Part shown: in pieces, positions 17,309-24,900 of the stretch | Layout of the letters: the number at the start of each line of letters is the position of its first letter | Numbering within the stretch: the first letter of the stretch is position 1 | DNA from: Natrinema mahii | GTDB lineage: Archaea; Halobacteriota; Halobacteria; Halobacteriales; Natrialbaceae | Assembly: GCA_000690595.2 (NCBI GenBank) | Contig: JHUT02000009.1 | Span: forward strand, 1 to 64,000 | Direction of reading: 5' to 3' | Length of the DNA stretch: 64,000 nucleotides | The notes under the pieces: generated by a model | Database searches by the model: none | Told to the model about the DNA's origin: nothing | What the model saw: only the letters and a program-made list of their open reading frames with translations | Translations under genes and position numbers: made by a program

Positions 17309-17447
17309 CAGGCGGACGTTCGAGGGCGGGGTATTTCCATCTTCTGGGGACGGAAGAAGACGCTCGACGGGCTCGAGGACGGCACGGCTGTCGTGGGCCG
17401 CGACTCCGCTCGAGGGTCGGCGACTGACGCCCCGTTGGCCGTCACAG

Positions 17448-19178
17448 CTACGTCGATCGCGCCGATTTCGTCCCGTCGGTCGGAACGGTGACGTCCCGGA
17501 ACTCGAACCGCGCACCGCCGTCGTCGCCGTCGCACGCGGCGACGGTCCAGCCGTGGGCCTCGGCGATCCCCTCGACGATCGCCAGTCCGAACCCGGTCCC
17601 CTCCGCCGCGGTCGTGTGGCCGAACTCGAACACCGACTCGCGATCCGCCGGCAGCCCCGCACCCGTATCCTCGACGTAGAAGCCGTCGGGACGGTCGCCG
17701 CTACCGGTAGACTGCAACTCTCGCTCGAGCGGCCCGACGGTGACGGTCAGCCGATCGGCGTCGCCCCCGTGTTCGTCGGCGTCCTGACGGGGGTGGGAGT
17801 CAGGGCTCGTCGAGCCGTGTTCGACGGCGTCCTGCTGAGCGTGCGAAGCAGGGCTCGTCGAACCGTGTTCGACGGCGTCCTGCTGAGTGTGCGAAGCAGG
17901 GCTCGTCGAACCGTGTTCGACGGCGTCCTGCTGAGTGTGCGAAGCAGGGCTCGTCGAACCGTGTTCGACGGCGTTTCGAAAGAGGTTCTCGAGCAGCGAG
18001 CGAACGCGGGCCTCGTCGCCGTACAGCTCGAGGTCGGTTTCGATCTCGAGGCGGGCGTCGCCGGTGTCGACGGTTTCCCAGGCCGCTCGGACCGTGGCCG
18101 CGAGCGGAAACCGCTCCTCGTCGCCGATCGCTTTTCCCTGCCGGGCCAGCTGGAGGAGGCCGTCGATGAGTTCCTCGATCCGGGCGAGCGACCGCTGCAG
18201 TTTCTCGACGTGATGGTCCGCTGCCTCCCCCTCGATAAAATCGAGGTGCCCCTGTGCGACGTTCAGCGGGTTCCGCAGGTCGTGACTGACGAGGCTCGCG
18301 AACTCCGCTAACCGCTCGTTCTGGCGCTCGAGTTCGCGTCGGTAGCGTCGCCGACGCGTGACGTCCCGAATCGCGTGTACCGTTCCGGTGAACTCCCCGT
18401 TCTCGAGCGGCAGGAGCCTGGTGTGGACGTCGTGGATCCGCTCCTCCCCGTCCGGCGACTGAAACCGAACCTGATACTTCGCCCGTTCGCGGTCAGTCGT
18501 CGAGGAGAGCAGGGTGCGGACCTTCTCGATGTACTTGGTTGTCACCTGCTCGTCGTAGTAGCCGCGATCGATGAGAGCCGGAAACGGCGTTCCGATCAGT
18601 TCCGTCCGCTCCTCGGTGAAGGGGTCGGCGAACTCGTCGTTACACCAGTCGATGACGGCGTCCGCGTCGAGGGTGAACAGCGCGGTCGGCACGAGTTCGT
18701 GGATTCGATCGTTCCCGACGGGGGTCCGGTATCGCTCGAGTTGCCGTTCGCTCTCGCGGCGGGCCCGTTCGGCGCGGCGTTTCGCGACGGCGTTCTCGAT
18801 CCGGTTTGCGAGCAGGGCGTACCGGGCAGTTCCCGACCCCTTCCGGAGGTAGTCGGTAACGCCGGCCGAGATCGCCTCGCTCGCGATCGCGTCGGGCTCC
18901 GTGCCGGTAAAGAGGACGAACGGGACCGCCGGATCGCGCTCCCGTATCGCCGCGAACAGCTCGAGACCGTTCATATCCGGCATCTCGTAGTCGCTGACGA
19001 TGCAGTCGATCGCTCGGTCGGTGGCGTCGCTCACGCCGTCGAAAACCGCCAGCGCGTCGCGGCCGTTCGCCGCGGTCGTCACGTCGATCTCGTCGCTCCG
19101 TCGCTCGAGACCGGTGGCGGTCCGTTCGCGGTGTTGGGGGTCGGCATCGACACAGAGGACGCGGATCCCCGGAGACAT
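17448..19178 (-). CDS. Receiver-PAS-histidine kinase with a repeat insertion in the ATPase domain
   Basis: 576 residues. A receiver domain occupies residues 1-125 with the phospho-acceptor Asp in IVSDYEMPDMNG and Lys in YLRKGSG. A PAS domain spans about 150-275. The HisKA box VSHDLRNPLN holds His299. The HATPase has its N-box at NLFRNAVEHG (about 393-402) and G-boxes DTGAGLP and GTGFGLAIV. Between the N-box and the rest lie four copies of a 16-residue unit ending in a near-copy of the N-box. There are no transmembrane segments, so it is a soluble sensor. No dedicated output regulator is adjacent. Confidence 0.92.
   Translation of the reverse strand: MSPGIRVLCVDADPQHRERTATGLERRSDEIDVTTAANGRDALAVFDGVSDATDRAIDCIVSDYEMPDMNGLELFAAIRERDPAVPFVLFTGTEPDAIASEAISAGVTDYLRKGSGTARYALLANRIENAVAKRRAERARRESERQLERYRTPVGNDRIHELVPTALFTLDADAVIDWCNDEFADPFTEERTELIGTPFPALIDRGYYDEQVTTKYIEKVRTLLSSTTDRERAKYQVRFQSPDGEERIHDVHTRLLPLENGEFTGTVHAIRDVTRRRRYRRELERQNERLAEFASLVSHDLRNPLNVAQGHLDFIEGEAADHHVEKLQRSLARIEELIDGLLQLARQGKAIGDEERFPLAATVRAAWETVDTGDARLEIETDLELYGDEARVRSLLENLFRNAVEHGSTSPASHTQQDAVEHGSTSPASHTQQDAVEHGSTSPASHAQQDAVEHGSTSPDSHPRQDADEHGGDADRLTVTVGPLERELQSTGSGDRPDGFYVEDTGAGLPADRESVFEFGHTTAAEGTGFGLAIVEGIAEAHGWTVAACDGDDGGARFEFRDVTVPTDGTKSARST
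17773..17964 (-). repeat. Four tandem 48-base units inside the histidine kinase N-box region
   Basis: Units begin at 17773, 17821, 17869 and 17917 on the plus strand. The last three are almost identical and the one at 17773 is diverged. Each encodes 16 residues of the form DAVEHGSTSPASHTQQ. The VEHGST start copies the last part of the kinase N-box, so the array looks like repeated duplication of a segment beginning in the N-box. It adds about 64 residues at about 406-469. Length in multiples of three keeps the frame. Confidence 0.9.
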
Positions 19179-20292: not shown

Positions 20293-20425
20293 CCGCGAGC
20301 GCTGCGCGGTTCGGAACGAGCGGAGCGAGTGAGAACCGTGACTGCGAACGGGGAACGAAGTGACCCGTGAGCGAAACGAGCGGTCGTTTTGGTGCGGATT
20401 TTTCGAGGAGTGGTTCGCGAACGAA
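20293..20425 (+). repeat. Intergenic GAGCGA-type repeat with hairpin and T-rich end
   Basis: CCGCGAGCGCTGCGCGGTTC opens an element with an inverted repeat (CGGTTC and GAACCG) and purine-rich GAGCGGAGCGAGTGAG in the loop. It ends in T-rich GCGGTCGTTTTGG and GCGGATTTTTCG. A closely related element begins with almost the same 20 bases at 59061. It lies between the convergent radical SAM and HTH genes, so a bidirectional 3'-end role is plausible. Confidence 0.6.
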
Positions 20426-20454
20426 GCGAGCGTCCCCGACGAAAAAGCCGGTCG

Positions 20455-21780
20455 CTAATCGAGTTCGGTCGGATCGACACCCGGCAGCGTGATGAGGTTC
20501 TCCCGACCGATCCGGAGTTTTTCGATCTCGTCGTCGTCGTCCATCTGTGAGAGGAGTTGCGACACCTTGGCGTTCGACCAGCCGGTCTCCGAGACGATCG
20601 AGGCCTGTTTCATCCGACCGCCGTTTTGCTTGAGCATTCGAAGGACGCGCTCCTCGTCGCTCAGTAGTTCGGGATCGACCGCATCGTCCGGTTCCTCGTA
20701 CTCGAGGCTGGTCCCAGTGTCGTCGTTCTCCTCACCTGTCGAAGGCGTCGGGTTCGGTGCGTCTGGCGTGGAATCGGCGTCTCTCGATTCGCCCACCTCA
20801 ATGAGATCCCCCCTGCCAGTGATACTCCCGATCCCGATGGCCCCGAGCGATGGTAGTCTATCGATGACCGGCAGCTGCTGCGTCCGGTCGTTCTGTCGTG
20901 ACACGAGGTAACCGCCACCGAGGAGGCCGACGACGAGGAGGCCACCGAGCAGCCACCCCCACATCGGAACCAGCGAATCGCCGGTCTGGATGAAAACGAT
21001 CTCGAGTTCGGTAGCGTCGAACTCGTAAGGGCCGTCCCAGGAGAGTTGCGTTGGCGTCTCGAGGGCGTACTGCGGGGGTGTTTCGACGACGAGGCGCTGT
21101 CCGTCGTACAGTTGCATCCAGACGCCGTTTTCGGCTCGGAACGCGTCGCCGAAGTGAATCCGATCGCCGTCGACGGTAGCGAAGTCCGTCCAGGTGAACG
21201 AGTAGGAGATGACACCGATTCGGACGTCGTCGGTCGTCGTATCGTTACGAACGGTAGCGTCGTTTGGCGACTCGATAACCGTCGGGTCGTCCCATCCGGG
21301 GTCCTCGATCGACATCTCCCGGCCGGTCTCCTGTTCGGCAGTTCGACGGAAGTCCTCGAACACGTCGAGATCGTAGCCGACGTTACGCTGGTTATTCGTG
21401 ACTTCCTCGGCGTACTCTCGGAACACCGCCTCGTCGCTCTCGTTCGTTATGAGAAACCGACTCTCGATCGTCCACCGGACATCGCCGTTGTCGTGAACGG
21501 TAAGTCGAAACACCTGGCGAGTAGCGGGCCGCTCGAGTGGCTCCGTCGATTGGGTAGTGACGGCCGACGATTGGAATCCTGTCGTTCGGAACCGAGAGTC
21601 GGCCACGCGATAGTCAGTTGGCGACCGTTCGACCGTTGTCAGGGACCGGTCACCGATCGTATCGGCCCGCTCTGACGCCGGTGTCGAAGCGGACACGGTC
21701 GGTGTCACGGCCACCGCCCCCAGAAGAGTCGTGATGAGGAGGGTTGTGAGGGCGACTGTGACGGCGGTGGATACCCGCAT
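20455..21780 (-). CDS. Membrane-tethered winged-helix protein with extracellular domain
   Basis: 441 residues from ATG 21780. A signal-like hydrophobic stretch is at residues 8-30. An extracellular beta-rich domain of about 230 residues follows (VFRLTVHDNGDVRWTIESRF, then YSFTWTDFATVDGDRIHFGD). One transmembrane helix is at about 268-292 and an acidic linker follows. A cytoplasmic winged helix is at about 370-435 (LSDEERVLRMLKQNGGRMKQ, TGWSNAKVSQLLSQM). The layout matches haloarchaeal proteins annotated DUF7345/DUF7343 as I recall. It should bind DNA while anchored and respond to an external or envelope cue. It diverges from a secreted protein and a pilin, its likely targets. Confidence 0.85.
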   Translation of the reverse strand: MRVSTAVTVALTTLLITTLLGAVAVTPTVSASTPASERADTIGDRSLTTVERSPTDYRVADSRFRTTGFQSSAVTTQSTEPLERPATRQVFRLTVHDNGDVRWTIESRFLITNESDEAVFREYAEEVTNNQRNVGYDLDVFEDFRRTAEQETGREMSIEDPGWDDPTVIESPNDATVRNDTTTDDVRIGVISYSFTWTDFATVDGDRIHFGDAFRAENGVWMQLYDGQRLVVETPPQYALETPTQLSWDGPYEFDATELEIVFIQTGDSLVPMWGWLLGGLLVVGLLGGGYLVSRQNDRTQQLPVIDRLPSLGAIGIGSITGRGDLIEVGESRDADSTPDAPNPTPSTGEENDDTGTSLEYEEPDDAVDPELLSDEERVLRMLKQNGGRMKQASIVSETGWSNAKVSQLLSQMDDDDEIEKLRIGRENLITLPGVDPTELD

Positions 21781-21979
21781 GCGTACAATCGGGTGGTCGC
21801 CCGGGGGAAAAAACCCTTTCCATCGAAAATAAAACGTCACTGGCGGTCGTAAAGCGTTTCGGAGCCAGAGAACAGCTCTGACAGGGGCGGTGAAATCTCG
21901 GTAGCACGAATTCAATCCGGGTCTTCGAGGGAACTGAAGTGCGACCAGTTTTTGTATCAGGGGACCATACGGTCGTTCG
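21781..21979. promoter_or_regulatory. Divergent AT-rich promoter region between the membrane-HTH and secreted-protein genes
   Basis: This 199-base gap is clearly more AT-rich than its surroundings. On the minus strand GTTTTATTTTCG lies about 46-57 bases before the HTH-protein ATG, implying a short leader. That leader contains a GGGTTTTTTCCC-like inverted repeat. On the plus strand TTTTTGTATC lies about 25-30 bases before the ATG at 21980. Both genes could be controlled from here by the HTH protein itself. Confidence 0.45.
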
Positions 21980-23212
21980 ATGAACCGCGCGATTCCGCCC
22001 CTCCTCGCAGTCCTTCTGATTCTATCGCTGACTGCGATTCCGGTGATGGCAAACCCCGTAACCGGGGCGAACGACCCTCCCGAGACACTCCACCAGGAAA
22101 CCCTACGTACGGCTAACGGCCCGTCTCCAGAGACGGTCGCTAACACGACGAACCGGCTCTCGCTGGATGGGACGTCCAGAAGCGAGTACGCCGAATACGG
22201 CCCCGACCTCGGTGCAGCGCTCGCGAGTACGGACGACGAGATTCGAGTCGATCACGCCCAATACACGACCGTCGAGCAGGCGTTCGACAGTGCGAGCGCG
22301 GGCGAGCGACGGCAACTGCTCAGCAAGGGCTACGAGCGGTTGAAAGGGCAAGCGGACACGCTCGAAGAACGAGAGCGGCGAGCCGTCCGCGCCCACGCCA
22401 ACGACGAACTGTCGAACGCACAGCTACTGCAGGTCTTGCTTCGAAATCATCGGGAAGCGGCAGTTCTCTCCGAGGCGTTTACCGAACTCGAGGAGCGATC
22501 GGATCGAGTTCGGGACGTCTCGCTCCCGGTCGAAGACGAGCAGGACCAACTCGAGATGCACCGAACGAAAATCCGGTCACAGCTCGATACAGCCTACAGA
22601 TACGGTGAATCAGCATCAGCGGGCGAGAACCTGATCACTATCGAAACGTCACGGAACGGCTTTGTCATCTCGCTCGTCGGTGAGAATTACGTCCGCGAAG
22701 CGACCCGCTTCGACAATCGAAATACGTCGCAGTCGACGCAGTTCGAAGACATTTTGGACGCTTACGACCACGCTCGCGAACTGTACCCCTGGGCGTACGA
22801 AACGGTTCAGTCTCCGTCGTTCAACGAGTATACGACGGTGAAGTTGTACAAGATCGACAACAACCATGACCAGGGACACCTCGAGGCCTACCTCGGCGGC
22901 GGAACCGGGAACATCTATCGCGAAGTGCAGACGCTCAACGTGAACGCACTGCCGACATCGACCATCCTAACCGAGCGGTCCAACGACCTCGAGATGTCGA
23001 TCAACGAGACGGCCGGGAACGGACCGAGCCACGTCACCGTGACCGATGCGGAGACCGGTGATCCGGTGTCGGCAACGGTGGCGATCGACGGGTACGAGGT
23101 CGGCGAGACCGCCGAGGACGGCGCGCTGTGGTTTGTTCCCCCCGAAGCACCCTACGAGCTGACTGCCGGCACGGGAACTGACAGTATCAATGTGAGTGTC
23201 GGGAGGGAATAG
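21980..23212 (+). CDS. Secreted haloarchaeal protein with a C-terminal carboxypeptidase-regulatory-like domain
   Basis: 410 residues. A Sec signal peptide ends near residue 25 (IPVMANPV). The central part is helical and charged (ASAGERRQLLSKGYERL, TLEERERRAVRAHAND), then a mixed region with several Asn-Thr/Ser glycosylation-type sites. The last 60 residues (VTVTDAETGDPVSATVAIDG) form a CarboxypepD-regulatory-like beta domain. No transmembrane anchor is seen after the signal, and I see no enzyme motif. It resembles haloarchaeal DUF7094/DUF7096-type proteins in layout, but I am not sure of the number. The position before a type IV pilin suggests a surface or pilus-associated role. Confidence 0.75.
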   Translation: MNRAIPPLLAVLLILSLTAIPVMANPVTGANDPPETLHQETLRTANGPSPETVANTTNRLSLDGTSRSEYAEYGPDLGAALASTDDEIRVDHAQYTTVEQAFDSASAGERRQLLSKGYERLKGQADTLEERERRAVRAHANDELSNAQLLQVLLRNHREAAVLSEAFTELEERSDRVRDVSLPVEDEQDQLEMHRTKIRSQLDTAYRYGESASAGENLITIETSRNGFVISLVGENYVREATRFDNRNTSQSTQFEDILDAYDHARELYPWAYETVQSPSFNEYTTVKLYKIDNNHDQGHLEAYLGGGTGNIYREVQTLNVNALPTSTILTERSNDLEMSINETAGNGPSHVTVTDAETGDPVSATVAIDGYEVGETAEDGALWFVPPEAPYELTAGTGTDSINVSVGRE

Positions 23213-23238
23213 ACGCCGCTCACGCCTCCGTCCGATCA

Positions 23239-23246
23239 TTTATATC
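23239..23246 (+). promoter_or_regulatory. TATA box for the pilin gene
   Basis: TTTATATC lies 23-30 bases before the GTG at 23269. This both supports a leaderless transcript and decides in favour of the GTG start. Confidence 0.55.
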
Positions 23247-23268
23247 GGAGCGGGCGACCAGCATCGCC

Positions 23269-23781
23269 GTGCCCACTGAACGATCGAGGGCGGCGAATAG
23301 AACGGCGGCCGGTCCCGCACGGAGACGCGGTCTCAGTCCGCTCATCGGCGTCCTCGCACTGCTCGCCCTGACAGTCTGTCTGGCGGCAGTCGTCGCCGTC
23401 GGCGTCGGAGCGTGGTCGGTCGCGTCGCCGGGGCCGACGGCAACATTCGACCTCGAGGCGAACGGGTCGACATCGACTATCGACATCGAACACGTCGCCG
23501 GCGACCCGATCGACGTCGACGAGCTGTCGGTAACGATCGCGATCGACGGGCGGGAACTCGCCGACCAGCCGTCGGTGCCGTTCGTCGGTGCGAGCGGGTT
23601 CGACGGCACGCCGGCAGGGCCGTTCAACGCCGAGACGGAGTCCGACTGGACGAGCGGCGAACGGGCCGGCCTCTCACTCGCGACGACGAACCGGCCGGAG
23701 CTCTCGACGGGAGATTCCGTCACTGTTACGCTCGAGACGGACGGAAAGCGGATCGCGACCCTCGAGACGACGGCGACGTGA
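23269..23781 (+). CDS. Type IV pilin-like protein
   Basis: 170 residues from a GTG. The short basic leader ends RRRG, followed by LSPLIGVLALLALTVCLA, the euryarchaeal class III signal plus hydrophobic helix cut by the prepilin peptidase PibD before the Leu. The mature part is a small, Thr/Ser-rich beta domain with IDVDELSVTIAIDGRELAD and a DSVTVTLETDGKRIATLE ending, as in haloarchaeal DUF1628-type pilins. No PilB/PilC assembly genes are in the window, so it would depend on a machinery encoded elsewhere. It lies 56 bases downstream of the secreted-protein gene but has its own TATA box. Confidence 0.85.
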   Translation: MPTERSRAANRTAAGPARRRGLSPLIGVLALLALTVCLAAVVAVGVGAWSVASPGPTATFDLEANGSTSTIDIEHVAGDPIDVDELSVTIAIDGRELADQPSVPFVGASGFDGTPAGPFNAETESDWTSGERAGLSLATTNRPELSTGDSVTVTLETDGKRIATLETTAT

Positions 23782-24410: not shown

Positions 24411-24567
24411 TAGTAGCGAGTTTCGGTCGGATCGGCATATGTCTGCCGTTCCCGGGGGCTCGCGGCCGGAACGTAAGCCGCTATTACCGGCGATCGGCCC
24501 GGCTCCCGCTGAGGCACTTTCGCAACTACCATATACGCGCTCTGGCAAACGTCCGGTTGCTTAGAGT

Positions 24568-24900
24568 ATGCCGAGGCCAGAGGTTCTCGAACGAATTAAG
24601 TCGGCAGAAGAGGAGGCCGACGAGATCGTCGCATTGGCAGCAAACGACCGCGACGAGCGAATAGCCGAGGCCCGGGAACGTGCCGAGGAGATTCGCACGG
24701 AAGCGGAACAGGAGGCCCAGGAGTTGCGGGAGCGCCGCCTGGAGGAAGCTCGCGAAGAGATCGATGCGGAGTGTGAGCAGGTCCTCGAAGAAGGCGAACA
24801 GGAGCGTGAGGAACTCGCCGAGCGCGCCCGAGAGCGGGTCGACGAAGTGACAGACCACGTCGTCGAACTGTTCCAGGAGGACGTCCATGCTCAGACCTGA
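24568..24900 (+). CDS. atpH: A-type ATP synthase subunit H
   Basis: 110 residues, almost entirely charged and helical: AEEEADEIVALAANDRDER continues into heptads of Glu, Arg and Ala over the whole length. It forms the peripheral stalk of the A1Ao ATP synthase as a coiled coil with subunit E. It is the first gene of the operon. CATATACG at 24530-24537 is a suitable TATA box about 34 bases before the ATG. The 3' end overlaps atpI by 14 bases. Confidence 0.93.
   Translation: MPRPEVLERIKSAEEEADEIVALAANDRDERIAEARERAEEIRTEAEQEAQELRERRLEEAREEIDAECEQVLEEGEQEREELAERARERVDEVTDHVVELFQEDVHAQT

Follow-up and report, generated by a model that had tools for sequence, protein, structure and literature searches.

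The window, by which we mean the whole stretch of 64,000 nucleotides of Natrinema mahii DNA that was analysed, contains two divergent genes and a third gene that lies downstream of one of them (Table 1). The minus-strand gene encodes an HTH protein that consists, from the N-terminus, of a signal peptide, a DUF7345 ectodomain, one transmembrane (TM) helix, an acidic linker and a C-terminal winged helix of the DUF7343 family. Both Pfam assignments lie far above the gathering cut-offs (130.5 versus 27.5 bits for DUF7345, and 107.3 versus 27.6 bits for DUF7343). The structure model places the winged helix at residues 375–431 and aligns it with MarR, ArsR and Z-alpha folds (Z ~10), and the recognition-helix region of DUF7343 is almost invariant across 51 orthologues. 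The architecture is compatible with a topology in which the N-terminus is outside and the winged helix inside, and it bears out the preliminary description, which had proposed an extracellular sensor-like domain, one membrane helix and a cytoplasmic winged helix. A Foldseek search with the HTH-protein model returned no match at E <= 0.001, and the VIA matches of this model lie mainly over the winged helix and say little about the fold of the ectodomain. Named relatives of the HTH protein come from Natrialbaceae, such as Natrinema and Natronorubrum.

Table 1. Features of the locus, in coordinates of the window
Feature	Positions	Strand	Remarks
HTH gene, 441 aa	20455..21780	-	ATG at 21780; ORF, Pfam, structure model
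Winged helix DUF7343 of HTH protein	20482..20667	-	Pfam, residues 372-433, E 3.4e-31
Single TM helix of HTH protein	20893..20964	-	residues 273-296, helix in structure model
DUF7345 ectodomain of HTH protein	21067..21504	-	Pfam, residues 93-238, E 5.7e-38
Core-promoter element of HTH gene, GATGGAAAGGGTTTT	21810..21824	-	~30-44 nt before HTH ATG; conserved motif
Second element, ATAAAACGTCA	21829..21839		its AAAAC lies 21 bp from AAAAC of first element
Third, degenerate repeat, GTAAAGCGTTTC	21849..21860		~20 bp further; weak here, but strong in f3 and f6 families
Core promoter of secreted gene, CGACCAGTTTTTGTA	21942..21956	+	motif analysis
Secreted gene, 410 aa	21980..23212	+	signal-peptide-like start, DUF7096, DUF7094, Fn3_arc (Pfam)
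TATA-like box TTTATAT of pilin gene	23239..23245	+	pilin's own promoter-like element
Type IV pilin-like gene (Pilin_N)	23269..23781	+	frequent, dispensable third member

The divergent gene encodes a secreted protein with DUF7096, DUF7094 and Fn3_arc domains (182, 105.1 and 87.8 bits versus cut-offs of 27, 27 and 28.9). It had earlier been described as secreted with a CarboxypepD-like end; the secretion is upheld, and the end is instead Fn3_arc (E 4.9e-25). The structure model (pLDDT 88.6) has a helical N-terminal part, an alpha/beta middle and an Fn3-like end. The helical part is similar to coiled coils of STAT proteins (Z 8–10) and to the C-terminal domain of YpeB (5boi; Z 8.9 over 120 residues, rmsd 4.0), likenesses that may reflect just a shared arrangement of helices, and the Fn3-like C-terminus superimposes on an MG domain of alpha-2-macroglobulin (Z 10.9 over 72 residues, rmsd 1.4). 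Among the matches listed for this model there is no lipocalin-like fold of the VtrC type, and no convincing sequence relatives were found in the PDB. By score, both proteins are full members of their Pfam families (DUF7345 with DUF7343, and DUF7096 with DUF7094 and Fn3_arc), which are families of unknown function; our literature search found no paper naming DUF7345, DUF7343 or DUF7096.

The third gene, as had been proposed, encodes a type IV pilin (Pilin_N, 52.5 bits versus a cut-off of 25.2; TIGR02537, 33.4 versus 20), and is followed by a MenG-like methyltransferase gene and then the A-ATPase operon. By gene order and published descriptions, the HTH and secreted genes are orthologues of HVO_0306 and HVO_0307 of Haloferax volcanii. 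HVO_0306 is listed as a "probable transmembrane glycoprotein/HTH domain protein" and an O-glycoprotein candidate, HVO_0307 is listed as a conserved hypothetical N-glycoprotein, and both have a predicted Sec signal (PMC8241124); HVO_0309 is annotated as menG (PMC8305020). The HTH and secreted genes are separated by 199 bp (21781–21979) with a G+C content of 53.8%, compared with 66.4% for the window. The region belongs to the lowest 1.1% of 199-bp stretches, and the term AT-rich, used for it previously, is therefore right in relative terms.

The conservation of this arrangement was analysed in 194 Halobacteria genomes, with 141 loci (140 fetched loci and the window) read directly and the other 53 genomes covered by profile search. 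The divergent HTH/secreted pair was found in 186 of the 194 genomes, the count for the 53 genomes being among the matches listed, and the conserved neighbourhood on which the preliminary description depended is thus present. In 138 of the 141 loci the HTH gene lies immediately before the secreted gene and is transcribed away from it; the exceptions are a contig end (G129), a genome with the two genes far apart (G029) and G068. Of the remaining genomes, 50 show a first-tier secreted gene among the matches listed, and in 48 of these the HTH gene stands divergent from it. In the other two, the HTH gene stands beside a shortened second copy of the secreted gene (G116) or the two genes are on different contigs (G148), and in three genomes (G021, G128 and G151) the matches listed include no secreted gene of the first tier. 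Such conservation of a neighbourhood over the whole class is far beyond chance. The other neighbours are less constant. The pilin gene, directly beside the secreted gene at 123 of 141 loci, is a frequent but dispensable neighbour, as the pair is kept in all 18 loci that lack it. MenG and ATPase genes are usually adjacent to the locus, and the pair is likewise kept in 7/7 loci without the MenG-like gene and in 26/26 without a nearby ahaH of the ATPase operon. On the other side of the pair, a radical-SAM gene occurs mainly in family f1 (42 of 49 loci there).

The intergenic region contains a conserved motif, GATGGAAAGsGTTTT, at an almost constant spacing from the HTH ATG, a position that we take to be the place of the BRE/TATA elements in a leaderless gene. 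The strict pattern is present in 103 of 138 HTH loci, and a related version was recognized by eye in the other 35. The exact motif has one match in each of 72 of 116 genomes and is absent in 44, compared with 3 matches in 116 for the reversed control. In the split pairs of G029 and G148 the motif remains with the HTH gene. The motif contains an ATG that might be read as a longer start or an upstream peptide, a reading that was rejected: its frame varies (65, 26 and 12 of 103), and the conservation is therefore of DNA. A near match with one mismatch lies at G000:C2:135418. A second element (ATAAAACGT) follows the motif in 61 of 78 loci of families f1, f3 and f6–f9, compared with 7.5% of shuffled windows, and a third repeat lies another 21 bp away; upstream repeats occur in none of the 22 loci of families f2 and f4; the spacing test covered 100 of 109 non-redundant loci. 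In 10 of 18 genomes the strict repeat pair is present, each time as a single copy. Because both the strict motif and the repeat pair are essentially single-copy, no regulon was drawn, and no wider regulon was seen by motif.

In non-redundant genomes, the promoter information content is 24.7 bits for the HTH gene, 15.0 for the secreted gene, 15.6 for the pilin gene, 17.7 for MenG and 26.1 for ahaH. An initial reading of the HTH motif as an extraordinary operator was toned down on these values, as the promoter of the ATPase operon is equally conserved (26.1 versus 24.7 bits), and the motif may be a mere core promoter. A strongly conserved core promoter before the HTH gene that occurs essentially once per genome points to self-regulation of this gene. 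The same comparison, together with the usual presence of MenG and ATPase genes next to the locus, agrees with passive conservation, in which two important back-to-back promoters are locked beside a slowly rearranging ATPase operon. We consider this highly improbable, since the pair persists where the ATPase, MenG or pilin genes are gone, and it is largely refuted by the paralogous pairs that remain together elsewhere in the genomes.

These pairs were identified in a second-tier set of DUF7096-like genes, restricted to matches that begin before profile position 297 and so are not confined to the C-terminal Fn3 part. Among the matches listed, 43 of 52 second-tier genes have a member of the HTH family, which here takes in ectodomain-only proteins, no more than 1.5 kb away, and 9 have no such neighbour. 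The 43 comprise 35 N-domain-only genes arranged in same-strand tandem, 6 full-length divergent genes, 1 full-length tandem gene and 1 short divergent gene. Conversely, 38 of 58 full-length HTH paralogues among the matches listed have a DUF7096-like neighbour and 20 do not. In a second set, formed by the 14 genomes of other families common to the DUF7096 and DUF7345 searches and limited to N-domain matches, 12 of 17 second-tier DUF7096-like genes lie no more than 1.5 kb from a DUF7345 gene. The genome of the window itself has a second pair (C4:16115–17185 and 17372–17974).

Trees of 41 pairs, including 17 secondary pairs hand-picked among the fetched loci, were calculated for the HTH and DUF7096 domains. 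Both set the primary pairs and the secondary divergent pairs apart as clades. The tandem pairs also group as a single clade in each tree, which in the case of DUF7096 takes in the outgroup pair of G375 as well. The two families thus appear to have been duplicated together. The recognition-helix region of the paralogues differs from the primary type. Conservation is high in the winged helix (mean distance 0.22), whereas the ectodomain and the secreted partner are variable (0.65–0.74). A mirror-tree analysis was discarded as support for coevolution because it does not discriminate: the partial correlation between ectodomain and partner is 0.36, versus 0.41 between ectodomain and MenG. Secondary clusters also contain DUF7345-only proteins after the secreted gene, and 4 of 10 such proteins scanned pass the PGF-CTERM cut-off.

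Searches of drawn genomes, with H. volcanii as positive control, detected DUF7096 in 43/43 genomes of the class and in 1/203 others of the phylum, and DUF7345 in 43/43 and 24/203, respectively. All 13 DUF7345 loci fetched from outside the class have at least one ORF that combines a DUF7345-type ectodomain with a winged helix. In G319, a genome from outside the class, a DUF7096-like gene stands beside a gene for DUF7345 and a TM segment without winged helix. In another, G375, a gene with weak likeness to DUF7096 is followed by one for DUF7345 only and then by a full HTH gene.

The preliminary description had regarded the HTH protein as a one-component regulator of surface genes. The regulator architecture holds, and the one-component part is probably not the whole story, as the secreted gene behaves as that of a cognate partner. 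In a true one-component system, DUF7345 alone would sense the envelope, with the secreted protein and the pilin just targets. Divergent arrangements of a regulator and its target are of a common kind, the pilin gene is adjacent in 123 of 141 loci, and among the matches listed 20 of 58 HTH paralogues are without a DUF7096 neighbour, all of which would fit this reading; moreover, the membrane regulators ArnR and ArnR1 bind pilus and archaellum promoters (PMC6396743). We regard this reading as unlikely, for it leaves the tandem same-strand paralogous pairs, the parallel HTH and DUF7096 trees and the G319 pair unexplained. Since the pair outlasts its neighbours, the paralogues stay paired, the trees split alike and G319 retains a pair without the winged helix, the secreted protein appears to be a cognate extracytoplasmic partner and not just a target.

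Based on these results, we propose that the locus probably encodes an archaeal co-component transmembrane transcription switch, formed by an HTH receptor/regulator and a dedicated secreted partner. The proposal builds on features established at the sequence level, namely the predicted architecture, the class-wide pairing, the co-diverged paralogous pairs and the conserved promoter element that accompanies the HTH gene. The DUF7345-TM-DUF7343 protein would be receptor and output in one chain. The secreted DUF7096-family glycoprotein would bind or stabilise the DUF7345 ectodomain, a physical contact that we infer, as we do the signal and the direction of control, and partner binding would set whether the winged helix acts. 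The regulator would most likely control its own promoter and, via the shared intergenic region, also the partner gene, with the pilin as a plausible, optional output. The winged helix may be released by proteolysis.

Two other readings also assign a role to the secreted protein. As a monitor of envelope quality, the HTH protein would read the folding or assembly of a structural DUF7096 surface glycoprotein, which would be a monitored client that relays no signal. The near-universal, mostly single-copy (at the strict cut-off) and well-detected secreted glycoprotein, its Fn3-like C-terminus with the likeness to an alpha-2-macroglobulin MG domain, and the PGF-CTERM-bearing DUF7345-only surface proteins of some clusters would fit such a monitor, which sequence cannot separate from the co-component switch; we judge it distinctly unlikely. 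It is quite unlikely, too, that the genes form a three-part surface signalling module in which the DUF7345 receptor-regulator reads the secreted DUF7096 protein as a true extracellular signal, PGF-CTERM-anchored copies of the ectodomain are decoys or co-receptors in secondary clusters, and duplicated, insulated signal-receptor pairs coexist in one genome.

Little is understood of how archaea sense across their envelope, and a near-universal haloarchaeal pair whose paralogues stay together makes the question testable in Haloferax volcanii. Head-to-head pairing and apparent joint duplication suggest that the secreted protein forms the outer half of a signalling device not described so far. The HTH protein, with a predicted TM region and a predicted DNA-binding domain in one chain, corresponds to the transmembrane transcription regulators (TTRs). 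The single archaeal entry in Table 1 of the TTR survey, ArnR, has no associated protein listed there (PMC10269533), whereas the HTH protein described here has a conserved candidate partner. ArnR and ArnR1 of Sulfolobus acidocaldarius are likewise membrane-bound regulators from archaea, with a link to type IV pilus-like structures (PMC6396743). Their HTH is located in the N-terminal region (PMC13286277), in contrast to the winged helix at residues 372–433 of 441, and the portions of PMC6396743 and PMC13286277 that deal with them report no secreted partner, in contrast to the candidate found here.

The closest parallel is provided by the co-component systems VtrA/VtrC, ToxR/ToxS and PsaE/PsaF, described from enteric bacteria in a paper whose main text does not contain the word archaea (PMC9214523); no archaeal co-component system was among the matches listed in our literature search. 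A tethered HTH transcription factor, an adjacent gene for an extracytoplasmic partner (a role that is putative here) and fast-evolving sensor parts are shared, and no sequence relation of the secreted partner to its bacterial counterparts was found. The bacterial partner gene lies downstream in the same orientation, whereas it is divergent at the primary locus described here and only the tandem paralogous pairs match. The present system is archaeal, and its partner has a signal peptide, no further TM segment, and a helical and Fn3-like structure in the model. The bacterial regulators have an N-terminal HTH, a TM segment and a C-terminal periplasmic domain; here the order is reversed, with the ectodomain N-terminal and the winged helix C-terminal. 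If the proposal is correct, archaea, too, have co-component signalling, with the membrane topology inverted.

The A-type ATPase operon has a promoter that scores 26.1 bits and whose conservation over the Halobacteria equals that of the core-promoter element preceding the HTH gene.

Coordinates of features in the window
Feature	Position	Location	Sequence
Tandem repeats of the response regulator-PAS-histidine kinase	about 17780-17990	inside 17448-19178 (-)	
A-type ATPase operon promoter	24480-24570		CGCAACTACCaTATA

In the kinase, a unit of ~16 residues (VEHGSTSPASHTQQ) is repeated several times in tandem, the copies being nearly identical; the series starts with the N-box-like stretch of its ATPase domain. 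At 20310-20440, flanked by a radical-SAM gene on one side and the HTH gene on the other, inspection by eye showed runs of GAGCGAGCGAAACGAG-like repeats.

The third position, occupied by a pilin at the primary locus, is instead held by DUF7345-only surface proteins, some with a PGF-CTERM, in secondary clusters (L225, L226, L229 and L256-L259).

Elsewhere in the same genome, on contig C1 (L212:5246-8163), a DUF7343 winged-helix protein lacking DUF7345 lies ahead of a secreted DUF7282 protein of 720 aa. This arrangement is the same theme as the HTH/secreted pair, with another surface family.
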